A stretch of DNA of 64,000 nucleotides from NCBI GenBank assembly GCA_029245125.1, contig JAQWPZ010000177.1:1-64000 (forward strand), written 5' to 3'. Source of the DNA: Rubripirellula sp. GTDB taxonomy: Bacteria; Planctomycetota; Planctomycetia; Pirellulales; Pirellulaceae. Below the pieces are notes generated by a model that saw nothing but the letters and a program-made list of their open reading frames with translations, did no database searches and was not told where the DNA came from. Shown here piece by piece: positions 1,153-10,379 of the stretch (position 1 is its first letter; each line of letters begins with the position of its first letter). Position numbers and translations under genes: made by a program.

Positions 1153-2139
1153 CTACTGCAAACTACTTCCAACGCCTGCCATGCGAAGGTCAGCATTCTG
1201 GGATTTGTCGACAGCCATTAGTGTCCGCAGTTTCATCGCCACGGTCGGTTCACCTGGTAATTCGCTGCCAGGTGGGCTGCCCCAAAATAAACGGGCGCCG
1301 GATTGCGTCGTCAATTCAAGCTGGGGCGTTTCTGTTTGGCGTGGATCACCGTGGACGCCGATGCTTCGCAGCGTGGTTTCCTCACGAACGGGTTGCAGCA
1401 GTTCCGCAAGCTTGGCTGCCGCTTCGACTCGTCGATCGCCGAATGGAGTCCCTGCATCATTGGTGGAGTAGACGCCCGGTACTTCGATGTACAGGTATTG
1501 ATTGGTTTCTGCTTGAGCGAATTCTGTCGTCGGTAGCAAGACACCCTCAGCATCGACTGGGAAAAAGTAGCTGCGAGTATCGCTGCGATCGGGTTTGAAT
1601 ACGTGCACCATCGCGACAGGAATCCGGTAATCGAGTCGAACATCGATGATGCCGCCCGGAAGTTTGCGGACCCCAATTACCTCTCGCACCCACGGATGCA
1701 TGGAAAAGGCCGAGGCAATTTTGGCAGTCGCTTGGCGGTCGAGCAGCGAAAGCTCTTCCATTGCTGTATCGCGATAAACCGCTTTAACAATATTGCTGCG
1801 AACGTGTTCAGGGGGATCGCTGATGAGGATCTGAGTTGGATCAATTCCACTATAGCGCTGGGTGACATGAACAGATCCCCAGCGATGCCAGGCAACATAG
1901 CCGCCGATGATGAGCAGTGCCGGCCACAATATTGAAAAAGCTGCTGGTGCCTTGATGAGGCGACGTAGCAAATCGCGGACAGGGCGCGTCGGTTCAGAGT
2001 CAGGCGATGGCGTCGCCACGGTGATTCCCTTCGAATAGTTCACCGCATTCGCAGTGCGTGCGGATGCCGCGATCGTTTGGCCGTTTGACACTTGGCCATT
2101 TGACACTTGACCATTGGACGTGGATCGTAACCACGACAC
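1153..2139 (-). CDS. ftsQ: FtsQ/DivIB-like POTRA membrane protein
   Basis: A 328-residue protein with the FtsQ/DivIB layout: a cytoplasmic N-terminal tail, one membrane segment at about residues 66-84 (FSILWPALLIIGGYVAW), then a POTRA-like and beta domain facing the periplasm, with the HPWVREVIGVRKLPGGIIDVRLDYRIP-type pattern (WV..V.V.R..P..I.V.V..R.P) typical of FtsQ at about residues 145-175. FtsQ links division proteins in most bacteria. It starts with GTG 8 bases after the murB stop, so the two are surely cotranscribed. The tail holds an in-frame repeat of SNGQV (15-bp units, 2076-2120). Sequence identity to FtsQ is weak; the call rests on topology, the beta-domain motif and the murB neighbour. 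Confidence 0.72.
   Translation of the reverse strand: MSWLRSTSNGQVSNGQVSNGQTIAASARTANAVNYSKGITVATPSPDSEPTRPVRDLLRRLIKAPAAFSILWPALLIIGGYVAWHRWGSVHVTQRYSGIDPTQILISDPPEHVRSNIVKAVYRDTAMEELSLLDRQATAKIASAFSMHPWVREVIGVRKLPGGIIDVRLDYRIPVAMVHVFKPDRSDTRSYFFPVDAEGVLLPTTEFAQAETNQYLYIEVPGVYSTNDAGTPFGDRRVEAAAKLAELLQPVREETTLRSIGVHGDPRQTETPQLELTTQSGARLFWGSPPGSELPGEPTVAMKLRTLMAVDKSQNADLRMAGVGSSLQ
2076..2120. repeat. 15-bp tandem repeat x3 inside ftsQ
   Basis: Three imperfect 15-bp copies (core ggccatttgacac) encode the pentapeptide SNGQ(V/T) near the N-terminus of the FtsQ-like protein. The length is a multiple of three, so the frame is kept. Confidence 0.85.
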
Positions 2140-2147
2140 CCTACGAT

Positions 2148-3023
2148 CTACCAGATTTGCAGATTCAGTTGCAAGTCGATCCCGGTTTGCAGCAAAACCT
2201 GCTCGCGGACCCGCTCAATCAGCCTCAGGCATTGATCGCTCGTCGCGCCGCTGTGAGCCAACAAGTACTGGGGTTGGTTGGTATCGAGTGAAACATTGCC
2301 TTCACGCAGACCAGCTAAGCCGACGTTTTGCAGCAATTCCTTGGCTGGCATTCCATCGGGGTCGACAAAGGGCATGGCAATCCGTGGTTCGTCGCTCGGG
2401 CGGGATGAGTTGCGGCTGATCCACAGCTTTTGCATTCGCTTGGTCAAAGCCGCCACATCACGGGTTTCCAGTTGGAAGGTGATTTTCAAAACCAGCAATC
2501 CCGTCAGGGAGGTTTTCCGGTGGGAGAACCCAGCCTCTTGTTGCGTCAGCGTCCGGATTGATCCATCCATGTCCAAGACGGTCACGGAGGCGACTGCCGA
2601 TCCAATATCTCGGCCTCCACCCGACGCATTTCCAACCACTGCACCGCCCACGGTTCCGGGGATGCCGACAAGATGCTCTAGACCGCCTAATCCAGCACCA
2701 ACCGATTTGATCACGGCGTGAGACAGTTTCACGCCCGATCCGACCGACATCTGCGTCCCGTCGATCGACGGCTGGCCCTCCAGTCCTGACAAGGAGATGA
2801 CGAGGCCATCAACACCCATCTCGCGGACCAGCACATTGCTGCCACCACCGAGGATTCGCACAGGTAGCCCTTGCTGATGGGCCGATTCCACGAGGCCTCG
2901 CAGGTCCGCTTCGTCGATCGGTTCCGCGAAGTACCGCGCCGGTCCCCCGATGCCCAACCAGACCAAGGGGCCAAGTGGCTCGTCAGTTCGAACCAAATGC
3001 ATGAGTGATTCGGGAAAAGTCAT
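2148..3023 (-). CDS. murB: MurB-like UDP-N-acetylenolpyruvoylglucosamine reductase homologue, catalytic motifs altered
   Basis: A 291-residue protein with the FAD-binding features of MurB, the enzyme that reduces UDP-GlcNAc-enolpyruvate to UDP-MurNAc in peptidoglycan synthesis: WLGIGGPARYF (22-32), GGGSNVLV (59-66) and GIPGTVGGAVVGNASGGG (120-137), plus the late GNVSL...ATSDQ block (242-264). The catalytic positions look changed. The usual YRxS reads HRKTS (168-172), the SxFKNP-type loop carrying the catalytic Ser reads AMPFVDP (216-222), and the C-terminal LEPEVR-type Glu segment reads DLQLNLQIW (283-291). It may be an inactive or repurposed MurB. The start is the ATG at 3023. It is followed 8 bases later by the ftsQ-like gene. 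Confidence 0.8.
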   Translation of the reverse strand: MTFPESLMHLVRTDEPLGPLVWLGIGGPARYFAEPIDEADLRGLVESAHQQGLPVRILGGGSNVLVREMGVDGLVISLSGLEGQPSIDGTQMSVGSGVKLSHAVIKSVGAGLGGLEHLVGIPGTVGGAVVGNASGGGRDIGSAVASVTVLDMDGSIRTLTQQEAGFSHRKTSLTGLLVLKITFQLETRDVAALTKRMQKLWISRNSSRPSDEPRIAMPFVDPDGMPAKELLQNVGLAGLREGNVSLDTNQPQYLLAHSGATSDQCLRLIERVREQVLLQTGIDLQLNLQIW

Positions 3024-3178: not shown

Positions 3179-3601
3179 CTAGCTTCCAAGTTTGCCGAGT
3201 GCCCGCCGAATCAAGCTTCGAACCGGCTGGGATGATTGAAAACCAAGTAATTTTCGTCGCTTCCAACCGTTCTCCTGCGGTGTGTAAACAATGATCTGTG
3301 GGATCACGTTCTCGCCGTTGGTAAGCTGCTTGGCGAGTTCCGGCTGCTCGTCTCGATTGACCATTGTCAATGCAACCGCATCAAAATCCCCATTTTTTTT
3401 CATCTCTTTGAGCGTTGTTTCTTTCAAAACGTTGCAGGCGGGGCACCACGGAGCGCCAACGATCACCATCAGTGGCTTTTGCTCTTCCAGCGATTGCTTG
3501 TAGGCCGCCGCATAATCTTGGGTCTTCGCCTTTTGATCGGCGGAGGAGGTGGAAGGAGAGGTCCCCAGAAAAATCAAAGACAGGATCAACGAAATCATCA
3601 T
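3179..3601 (-). CDS. Secreted thioredoxin-fold protein with CPAC motif
   Basis: A 140-residue thioredoxin-like protein. I place the start at the ATG at 3601, because an AAGGG ribosome site precedes it and a hydrophobic signal peptide follows (MMISLILSLIFLG). The thioredoxin fold begins at about residue 30, with the redox motif WCPAC at 52-56 and a cis-proline segment NVIPQIIVY. A CxxC thioredoxin exported to the periplasm would act in disulfide exchange, but the substrate is unknown. It does not overlap its neighbours; the gene downstream in its direction is murB, 155 bases away. A longer frame reaching 3679 exists, but the extension lacks signal-peptide character. Confidence 0.78.
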   Translation of the reverse strand: MMISLILSLIFLGTSPSTSSADQKAKTQDYAAAYKQSLEEQKPLMVIVGAPWCPACNVLKETTLKEMKKNGDFDAVALTMVNRDEQPELAKQLTNGENVIPQIIVYTPQENGWKRRKLLGFQSSQPVRSLIRRALGKLGS

Positions 3602-4179
3602 TTGTTCCCTTGTGCTTGGTTGGACCAGCCGAACGCGTTCGACACCCTGTCGAAAAATATCCCACCCGAGATCAAGCATTCTGATCTCGCAAATTCGAGC
3701 CTGTAAGTTTTGTTTCGATGGCTTGGTGGTTTCAATAAAATCGTTCGGCGGTGTGCGAACTCTCGCTCGTCCCAGCTCTGACTCATCAACCTAAAAGGTG
3801 GTCAATTCAGTCGCCGCCCAGCTGGGTGATTTGGAACCACCACAGCCTTCCGGGGGGTATGCGTTGGCATTTCCGGTTAGTGCTGTCGCGGTAAGGTAGC
3901 GGGAGTATAGGGATCGACTTGGGCCGGGCAAGTGGCTGGCTTGCGAATGCAGAAAAGGTTCTCCGGTTCCCCTGTCGAAGCTCCTTTTGCTGGACCCTCA
4001 GGAATCATTTTTTGTTCATTTCAGCGGTCTGAGGGCGATCATTTGCATCTCATCGTTTGGGTGCGACAAAAGGTTGCATTTCAGTCGCTTTTGGCTGGAA
4101 ATGATGTCGGACTACCGTTGGTCGGGCGGTATGTTGGGGGATAACCTGTCTCAATCATCACCTTGAATCGGGATGCTCG
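3602..4179. other. Divergent intergenic region, no gene seen
   Basis: 578 bases between the leftward thioredoxin-fold gene and the rightward Gfo/Idh-like gene. It must hold promoters for both. Short frames here (for example 3932-4144, plus) have no ribosome site or recognisable motif. No repeats or RNA gene were recognised. Confidence 0.5.
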
Positions 4180-6765: not shown

Positions 6766-6971
6766 CGTACTCGCTCACTCGGATGGGGCACGGGAAGGGA
6801 TTAGTCAATCAGCAAATGCGACGCATTCTAAATCGACTTGGTCGTGTTCAGTGGTGTGGTCTGAGGTATCCTAACAGATGACGGCAATCAGGTATTCTGA
6901 GCGACAAGCTGCCGAGGTTGCGACCCGTCAAACAAAATGTCTAGCCATCACGAAAAAAACAGAAGTTGCTG

Positions 6972-9900
6972 ATGATTGTTCGAATTGCTTTTCTGCTCGT
7001 AGCTGCCTTCGCAGGAGCACTGATGGCCCACGGTGTTGAACCGCCGATCAAATTGCAGCGAATGAAATACAACCATCCGGGATTGGCTGTTGATTTGGGG
7101 GTCGGTCTGTGGGGATGGCCATTGCCGATTGATTACGACCGTGATGGTGACCTTGACCTCGTCGTGTCTTGCAGCGATGTGCCTTACAACGGGACTTACT
7201 TTTTTGAGAACCCTGGTGCTGACGACGGGGCGTTGCCAGTTTTCAAGCCCGGCGTGAAAGTTGCTCCGGGGATTCGTAATCTTTCGTTTTCAATTACCGA
7301 CGGCCAGCCACGAATGATGGTTCCCGCCGCGGAACTGACGGGGGTGTTTGACGGTGATTTTTCGCAGCGTTTGAAAAGGTACCCCAACGCTAAACTGGAT
7401 GATGGTCAGGGGCGGATTCGTGCGAATCAATGGGGTGTGGTCGATTACGACGGGGATGGCGTCGAAGATCTGTTTGCAGGTCACGGATTGTGGGTCGAAT
7501 ATGGTTGGGACAATGCCTTTGATGAACAAGGGCATTGGACGCGCGGGCCACTTCGCGGCTATGTCTACATTCTCCGTAATCGCGGAACGACTGAACAACC
7601 AGAGTACGAACAACCGATGCGGTTGAGCGCGGGGGATGGGCCGGTCGATGTGTTCGGTATGCCCAGTCCTAACTTCGCTGACTTCGATGGTGACGGTGAC
7701 CTCGATTTGTTGTGCGGTGATTTCCTGGATGGCTTTACCTACTTCCAAAATGTTGGTTCGCGGAATGAGCCAAAGTATGCGTCAGGTCGTGTGCTAACGC
7801 GGAATGATCAGCCAATCGATATGCACTTGTGCATGATCGTTGTATCGGCGGTCGATTGGGATGGTGATCAGGATGTTGACCTCGTGGTGGGGCAAGAAGA
7901 CGGTCGAGTTGCTTTGCTAAGGCACACGGGGGTTGTCAGCGGTGGGATGCCGCAATTCGAGCCGCCCGTTTTCTTTCAGCAGCAAGCGGATGAAGTGAAG
8001 TTTGGTGCTCTCGTCACTCCCGTTAGTTTCGATTGGGACGATGACGGCGATGAAGACTTGGTGTGTGGAAACACGGCTGGCGAGATTGGTTGGATCGAGA
8101 ATCTTGACGGATTGAATCCGCCGAAGTGGTCAGCACCACGGTTGTTGGAAATCGATGGTCAACCGATTCGCATCATGGCTGGCGAGAATGGCTCGATTCA
8201 GGGTCCAGCGGAACGGAAGTGGGGTTACACCACAATTGACGTTGCCGATTGGGATCATGATGGGCTGCCCGATATCGTTGCGAATTCGATCTGGGGGAAA
8301 ATTGTTTGGTACCGAAACGTGGGAACAAGAACGCATCCCAAGCTTTCGGCAGCACAAAATGTGAGGGTCCAATGGGAAGGCGATCCACCCAAGCCGGAAT
8401 GGAATTGGTGGAACCCTGCGAAAGACGAATTGGCCACCCAGTGGCGGACCACACCGGTGGTTGTCGATTGGAATCATGACGGGCTGAATGACTTGGTGAT
8501 GCTTGACCATGAAGGTTATCTAGCTTGGTTTCCACGGTCCAAAATCGATGGCGAATCATCTGTGGGGTCTGTGTTGACAGAGCCTGTGTTGACGCTGGGG
8601 CCTGGGCAACGAGTCTTTTCCGGCGGAACCTTTGATAACCGTCACAAACGAGTTGGGGGGAATGACAACACGCCGCTGCAGCTTAATCAGGCTGCGGCTG
8701 GCAAGAGTGGCCGCCGAAAGCTGTGCGTCGTTGATTGGGATGGTGATGGTCGACGCGATTTGTTGGTGAACTCGGTCAATGTTCATTGGATGCGTCAGCA
8801 GGCTGGTGCCAAAGGGAAATACGTGTTTAGCGATGAAGGTCCCTTAAGCGATCGGCGATTGGCGGGGCACACGACGAGTCCCACCACAGTCGATTGGAAT
8901 GGTGATGGTCGACGTGAGTTGTTGGTCGGTGCGGAGGATGGGTACTTCTATCACGCCCCAGTCGACAAAGAATCGGATCAGGCCGCTAAGCGTCCACGCA
9001 AGAATGTGTTGTTCATCGCGGTCGACGATATGCGAGTCGAATTAGGGTGCTACGGTTCGCCACTGGTGCAATCACCTAACCTCGATCAACTCGCAAAAGA
9101 TAGTGTTGTCTTCGATCGTGCTTATTGTCAGCAAGCGGTTTGCAATCCTTCTCGCGCGTCGCTGATGACAGGTTTGCGACCCGACACGCTGGGCGTGACA
9201 GATCTGCCGACCCATTTTCGTGATCGGAATGACCAGTTGGTCACGTTGCCACAGCGATTCAAGCAGGGCGGTTACTTCACGCAAGGCATTGGCAAGCTGT
9301 TTCACAATTGGCGACAAGATCGATGGCGTGGAGATCCCGCATCGTGGACTGTTCCTGAATCGATGCATTATGCAAGTCACGGTCACGATCGACCGGTCGT
9401 GGACGGACCACTGTCCAAGAATCAGTTGCAGACTCCGCGAGTCGAAAGCCGTGACGTTCCAGACGACGCGTATTTTGACGGTCGGATCGCGGATCAAGCG
9501 ATTGATGCATTGCAGTCGATGAATGGCAAACCGTTTTTTCTCGGGGTTGGGTTTTGGAAACCGCACTTACCATTCAATCCGCCTGCCAAATATTGGGACC
9601 GCTACGATTTCAGTCATGTCCGGCTCCCCGATCATTCTCTTCCGCCCACTAATGTGCCGGCCATTGCACTTCATGACAGTCGAGAGTTGTTGCGAAGTTT
9701 TAAATCCGCACCACCGACGGATCATCAGATTCGTGTTCTGCGACACGGGTACTACGCGGCGATTAGCTATGTCGATGAACAGATTGGAAAAGTGATCGGT
9801 GAATTGGATCGGTTGGGTTTACGTGAACAGACAATCATTGTGTTCTGGTCCGACCACGGGTTTCATCTGGGTGAACATGGCCTGTGGTGCAAGACATCGA

Positions 9901-10379
9901 ACTTTGAATTGGACGCTCGTGTGCCGATGATGATCTCGGCTCCCGGTATCGGAACCCCTGGGACTCGGAGTGATTCGCTCGTCGAACTGCTTGATCTCTA
10001 TCCGACGTTGACAGAATTGTGTGGGCTGGATCCACCAAAGGGATTGGAGGGCACCAGTTTGGTGTCGATTCTGCGTGACCCTGCTGTCGAAGTGAAGCAA
10101 GCCTCAATGACTCAGCACACGCGACCCGCCTATCCGCCATCCGGTGGCGCCCCGGATGTTATGGGTTACTCAATTCGCACGTCTCGGTTCCGCTATACCG
10201 AGTGGCGGAACTTCGTTACCGGTGTTGTCGAAGCTGCCGAACTATACGACCACGAACTGGATCCTGCTGAAACCATCAACTTGGCCGCTGATGAGCAACA
10301 GGGTTCGGCAATTCAGGAACACGCGGCGATCCTGGCAGCGTTGCTTGAAAATCAGTCTGATACGGTTTCCAATCGCTGA
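6972..10379 (+). CDS. FG-GAP/VCBS beta-propeller fused to an S1-family sulfatase
   Basis: A 1135-residue exported protein. A signal peptide (ending near residue 22) is followed by a propeller-like region, about 30-660, with nine calcium-type D-x-D/N-x-D-G repeats (such as [25 protein letters not shown] and [13 protein letters not shown]). From about residue 677 comes a complete type-I sulfatase: [11 protein letters not shown] metal site, formylglycine motif CNPSR with Cys724, GKLFHNW, the substrate segment [10 protein letters not shown], the second metal site [13 protein letters not shown], and a normal C-terminal end. The sulfatase half is most like iduronate-2-sulfatase-type enzymes, which remove sulfate from polysaccharides. 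The ATG at 6972 is preferred over an upstream TTG. The fusion has no internal stop and may tether the enzyme to its glycan. Confidence 0.9.

Follow-up and report, generated by a model that had tools for sequence, protein, structure and literature searches.

Identity and active site of the window protein

What would a MurB protein be kept for once the residues that make it an enzyme have been replaced? The question is raised by a gene near the start of the window (by which we mean the whole 64,000-nucleotide stretch of Rubripirellula sp. DNA that was analysed) and by the following features within it:

2148..3023, minus strand: murB homologue and pseudoenzyme candidate, ATG start, 291 aa (domain, alignment and fold matches)
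2835..2849, minus strand: FAD-binding motif GGGSN, residues 59-63, kept (sequence)
2628..2666, minus strand: FAD-binding motif GIPGTVGGAVVGN, residues 120-132, kept (sequence)
2520..2522, minus strand: codon of His168, which replaces the active-site Tyr (S. aureus Tyr187; alignment)
2373..2375, minus strand: codon of Met217, which replaces the catalytic Ser/Cys (S. aureus Ser238; alignment)
2163..2165, minus strand: codon of Asn287, which replaces the catalytic Glu (S. aureus Glu308; alignment)

By ancestry and fold, the encoded protein is a MurB. It passes the Pfam cut-offs for FAD_binding_4 (PF01565; 73.5 bits, cut-off 26.4) and MurB_C (PF02873; 63.8 bits, cut-off 27), and scores slightly below the cut-off of the NCBIfam murB equivalog TIGR00179 (137.4 against 144.5 bits). 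When its AlphaFold model (pLDDT 92.7, pTM 0.86) was compared with the PDB, a comparison that measures fold likeness only and says nothing on function, the best solved matches were all MurB enzymes (Z 30.7-36.6 over 263-290 residues), followed by a group at about Z 17 that includes cytokinin oxidase and DprE1 (Z about 16-17). No second MurB, which the original prediction had suggested looking for, was found in the 334 contigs of the window's own 91% complete assembly.

Residue equivalences were taken from a phmmer alignment to S. aureus MurB (1hsk) and from MAFFT, and are gapless at the three catalytic sites. They place His168, Met217 and Asn287 at Tyr187, Ser238 and Glu308, so that the original prediction was right in calling all three catalytic motifs lost and, with GGGSN and GIPGTVGGAVVGN both present, the FAD-binding blocks intact. 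Its account of the Ser loop holds for the loss and needs correction for the reference residue, the order-level norm being Cys (GCIFKNP) and not Ser. According to PMC3689657, the nicotinamide and the enolpyruvyl group are each touched by Ser-239 and Glu-335 of P. aeruginosa MurB, and the adenosine part of NADPH is held by Tyr-196 and Asn-243. The equivalent of Asn-243 is Asn in most planctomycete MurBs and reads Asp in the window protein; with Tyr, Ser and Glu gone as well, both MurB half-reactions should be affected, as far as sequence can predict this. The Arg of the YR pair is still present (Arg169), and at the Lys-227 position an Arg remains.

Compared with the MurBs of S. aureus (1hsk), E. 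coli (2q85/1uxy) and P. aeruginosa (4jay), the window gene thus has in common its location ahead of ftsQ and its product the full-length fold (Z 30.7-36.6) and FAD motifs; unlike them, the window protein has the Tyr, Ser/Cys and Glu replaced, together with the substrate-channel Asn, His and Lys, and belongs to a lineage without MurA. Judged by the chemistry that its residues predict, it should not be filed as a MurB enzyme (EC 1.3.1.98).

Loss of the catalytic triad across Planctomycetia

The loss is not peculiar to the window gene. All 20 same-genus MurBs examined have His for Tyr and neither Ser/Cys nor Glu (17 are H/M/N, with one each of H/L/N, H/V/N and H/M/D), an agreement (20/20) that rules out a sequencing error or a local pseudogene, and the MurB of Stieleria tagensis (Pirellulaceae; L247) likewise lacks all three residues. 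In a class-wide sample of 218 genomes, each at least 90% complete, MurB was present in 216 and MurA scored above its cut-off in 69, with three more slightly below (G043, G128 and G146), giving about 72; the remaining genomes had either no MurA score or one at AroA level, about 92 bits at most. MurA was also typed in 27 further genomes.

To compare the two traits, 194 MurBs were aligned (from 167 of the 216 MurB-positive genomes of the class sample and from 27 further relatives), and the triad was counted as intact when the resident copy read Tyr/(Ser or Cys)/Glu. It is intact in all 43 MurA-bearing genomes and in 8 of the 149 MurA-less ones; the other 141 have lost one residue (16), two (82) or all three (43). 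Two of the 194 (G021 and G043), which carry an extra murA-murB pair, were counted apart from the 43 and the 149, and the second MurBs of G021, G043 and G056, an identical second copy in G006 and a duplicate place (L218) were kept out of the counts. The eight MurA-less genomes with an intact triad are as expected if the loss was recent, and equally if another substrate exists. All 23 MurBs from other classes of the phylum keep the triad.

Triad loss recurs, with differing replacements, over most MurA-less families of Planctomycetia, and within families the replacement residues are conserved. The 50 proteins of family f23 mostly have Glu/Asp for Tyr and Arg for Ser and keep the Glu, the 19 of f21 mostly keep the Cys and have Gln for Glu, and the window's genus has His/Met/Asn. 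These two families, probably of Gemmatales and Isosphaerales type (order names after PMC12283558), share with the window protein the absence of MurA, the murB-ftsQ pair and a broken triad, but differ from it in what was lost: Tyr and Ser with Glu mostly kept in f23, and Glu with Cys mostly kept in f21. The MurBs of MurA-bearing f22 (probably Planctomycetales) and of basal Pirellulales come from the same class and have the same C-terminal Trp and Trp-Ile motif (W201 and I202 in the window protein); unlike the window protein they keep Tyr/Cys/Glu and GCIFKNP, and unlike its lineage they have MurA, plus MraY, MurG and transpeptidases in those tested.

We considered and rejected a planctomycete-specific aromatic docking interface, since neither feature is confined to the class: the C-terminal Trp, present in 180 of 180 Planctomycetia MurBs examined, is shared with Acidobacteria and other phyla, and the Trp-Ile motif with Phycisphaerae. 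Both features are therefore ancestral and perhaps structural.

The association between MurA and the triad rests on few independent events, and the raw contrast is dominated by near relatives. When the three trait columns are left out of the MurB tree, it shows at least 8 changes of MurA and at least 11 of the triad. Independent contrasts, computed from the MurA table before its completion with further genomes, number 3 on supported and 8 on unsupported branches; in 2.7 of the 3 supported contrasts triad and MurA change together, and in none do they oppose each other (sign test p 0.25).

The rest of the peptidoglycan pathway

The original prediction had taken the gene to matter for peptidoglycan synthesis in this phylum, and here the evidence turned the argument around. 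MurA, MurG, MraY and penicillin-binding transpeptidases were not found in the closed genomes of the window's genus and family. In the closed same-genus genome G003, MurA is absent, the sole EPSP synthase being typed as AroA, and the Mur ligase family is represented by two PgsB, FolC and a weak MurE-like protein; a second same-genus genome (G018) has similar content. The window's own genome (G000) also yielded no MurA, although absences there are weak evidence alone because the assembly is 91% complete and lacks even AroA. Across 45 tested genomes, true MraY and PF00905 transpeptidases occur only in the 7 with MurA. The same 7 genomes have MurG-like proteins of at least 115 bits, as do 5 MurA-less members of families f6 and f7 that seem to represent an intermediate stage. 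With MurA, MurG, MraY and transpeptidases all missing from the lineage genomes searched, there is no known route to the substrate of MurB.

In PMC12283558, murA, murC, murD, murF, murG, murJ and ftsW are described as lost in Pirellulales, Isosphaerales and Gemmatales, and only murB, mraW and ftsK as retained throughout the superphylum. Complete loss of the pathway would conflict with the MurNAc, GlcNAc and DAP reported from R. baltica and G. obscuriglobus in PMC4432640. Those peptidoglycan sugars and DAP, the retained MurE-like ligase, Arg169 and the Arg at the Lys-227 position would all suit a MurB that still works with another proton donor on substrate from a divergent peptidoglycan pathway. 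We consider this improbable, given that the triad is complete in every one of the 43 MurBs that have a MurA partner, and that no MurA, MurG, MraY or transpeptidase was found in the closed genomes of genus and family.

Several other Mur-related genes were seen in these genomes. A divergent MurE-like ligase occurs in MurA-less genomes of the genus (L043, L046 and L056; about 114-126 bits against TIGR01085, cut-off 257) and may, like MurB, serve a new role. Each of two same-genus genomes (L041, L042, L048 and L049) has a pair of PgsB (poly-gamma-glutamate synthase) paralogues scoring 462-485 bits. In another genome of the genus (G021, L057:14238-16485) a MurA-like gene lies beside a second MurB, as it also does at L210 (G043) and L074/L218 (G056); in G021 and G043 this extra MurB is intact and the resident copy is broken. 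The surroundings of the G021 pair look by eye like a polysaccharide cluster, with a GC content of 0.517 against 0.552 at the resident murB locus. Horizontal acquisition of a murA-murB unit for making a MurNAc-containing polymer is one possible origin, a contaminant contig another.

Gene neighbourhood

Two genes flank murB on the same strand:

1153..2139, minus strand: ftsQ, 8 bases downstream of murB, with TM helix, POTRA and beta domain by model
3179..3679, minus strand: thioredoxin-like gene, directly upstream of murB

The NCBIfam match of the ftsQ product is weak (E 3e-4), and its structural model (pLDDT 83.5) has FtsQ or FtsQ-containing complexes as its six best PDB matches (Z 8.8-10.4). 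Of 139 MurA-less loci, 127 have an ftsQ-like gene immediately after murB in the same orientation, as do all 12 loci that had no MurA assignment at that stage, 10 of which later proved MurA-less; in 32 of 41 MurA-bearing loci, ftsQ is not the direct neighbour of murB. Other planctomycetes (L253 and L257) have the order Mur ligase (murC), murB, ddl, ftsQ, which makes the window's pair a remnant after murC and ddl went. As the pair is possibly leftover synteny, adjacency suggests a joint role and is no proof of one. PMC10632474 describes murB as very conserved in Planctomycetia, and murB and ftsQ as non-essential in P. limnophila.

Within the window's family, 18 of 46 loci have the thioredoxin-like gene upstream of murB; none of 148 loci from elsewhere does. 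Further along the window, at 6966-10379 on the plus strand, lies a 1137-aa ORF that by eye has FG-GAP/VCBS-type repeats and a sulfatase-like C-terminus, with a counterpart of similar length in G016 (L330:4725-8102).

Selection on the retained protein

The window MurB is not decaying: it is under strong purifying selection. Within the genus the median dN/dS is 0.061 (9 usable, unsaturated pairs of 153), and against its nearest relative, G016, the window gene has dN 0.035, dS 0.55 and dN/dS 0.064. Two genomes were left out of these and the segment statistics, one (G008) because murB meets a contig end and the other (G004) because of an internal stop, which was seen in that strain only. The dN/dS values of families f7, f21 and f23 (medians 0.23-0.33) were discarded, as their synonymous sites are likely saturated or codon-biased.

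The distribution of constraint within the protein has changed, most clearly at one feature:

2151..2225, minus strand: C-terminal helix and tail, residues 267-291, 93% identical in the window clade against 70% overall

Where MurA is present, no segment of MurB is better conserved than the catalytic-Ser loop (80% against 60% overall); in the window clade the loop has 65% identity against 70% overall. In this clade the tightest constraint now lies in the last 25 residues and no longer in the catalytic loop. Synonymous change in codons 266-280 proceeds at an ordinary rate, and thus the constraint on the C-terminal helix acts on the protein. A DNA element behind the C-terminal conservation was rejected, as clear excess codon identity is limited to codons 281-284. 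Those codons hold a 12-base motif, GGGATCGACTTG (window 2172-2183, minus strand), shortly before ftsQ and conserved at codon level in the clade, and a second exact copy lies 1.7 kb off at 3910-3921 on the plus strand in a stretch without obvious gene; a regulatory site is possible. Among 131 broken proteins, the residue of MurA-bearing proteins is kept in 88% of cases in FAD-motif columns and in 41% in catalytic/substrate columns, with the column sets assigned in part after PMC3689657.

These results bear directly on the idea of a vestige, a dead gene awaiting deletion. Most of the pathway is gone, and murB is non-essential in P. limnophila (PMC10632474), although that species still has murA. 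A vestige would hardly be found in 216 of 218 genomes, however, and it is contradicted by the genus dN/dS of about 0.06 and by a 25-residue C-terminus 93% identical across the clade, which leaves it very improbable.

A more serious rival is a neofunctionalised enzyme, in which the FAD-bound fold carries a re-built active site for some other redox reaction, differing by family. It would account for the retained FAD motif, for replacements conserved within families (in most f23 proteins Arg at the Ser position beside a retained Glu; in f21 a retained Cys and a Gln for the Glu; in the window's genus His/Met/Asn) and for the newly hyperconserved C-terminal segment of the window clade, and the MurB fold does resemble cytokinin oxidase and DprE1 (Z about 16-17). 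But the NADPH-contacting Tyr, Asn and Glu are gone, which makes the first half-reaction doubtful; the altered positions vary among families of the same gene order, which fits relaxation better than one new chemistry; and no linked metabolic gene besides ftsQ was seen. We regard this main rival, which is close to the planctomycete form with a different chemistry raised in the original prediction, as unlikely, while taking it seriously.

A probable orphan MurB in a lineage that appears to lack its pathway

The reading that we prefer, with a probability of roughly 55%, is that the window protein is an orphan MurB, a flavin-fold pseudoenzyme with a structural or regulatory function, most likely in the envelope or division machinery with FtsQ; the role and the link to FtsQ are our inference. 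The peptidoglycan precursor pathway was lost in the window's lineage, in whose well-assembled relatives no MurA, MurG, MraY or transpeptidase was found. Once there was no UDP-GlcNAc-enolpyruvate left for MurB to act on, the residues that hold NADPH and substrate in place (Tyr, Ser/Cys and Glu) would have been free to change, as the correlation with MurA suggests, and the catalytic residues appear to have been lost because the pathway was. The protein itself was kept, as its fold, FAD motif, strong purifying selection and C-terminal constraint show, and may now serve the envelope or division machinery with the product of ftsQ, the gene that directly follows. The pseudoenzyme proposal in the original prediction is, on predicted chemistry, well supported, with fold and FAD motif kept under strong selection and the catalytic and substrate groups lost. 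Land-plant plastid MurE, which works outside peptidoglycan synthesis, is a parallel case of a Mur protein kept for a new role after loss of the pathway, in another enzyme and another lineage.

More tentatively, MurB may have gained a second, non-catalytic role at an early point in Planctomycetia, one connected with FtsQ and with division that does without FtsZ. This role, rather than peptidoglycan, would explain why the gene outlasted MurA each of the several times that MurA was lost, and the result would be flavin-fold pseudoenzymes throughout the class that act in division or in the envelope.

The retention of murB without murA is already published; for the loss of MurB catalytic residues in planctomycetes we found no report in the open-licence literature. 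Peptidoglycan in Pirellulales, Gemmatales and Isosphaerales is disputed, and annotated murB genes belong to that argument. If it is true that these MurBs cannot catalyse, they cannot count as evidence for a wall, and another source would be needed for the reported muramic acid. They would also offer a testable entry to FtsZ-less budding division, since the protein is retained under selection and both its partner gene and its altered residues are defined.
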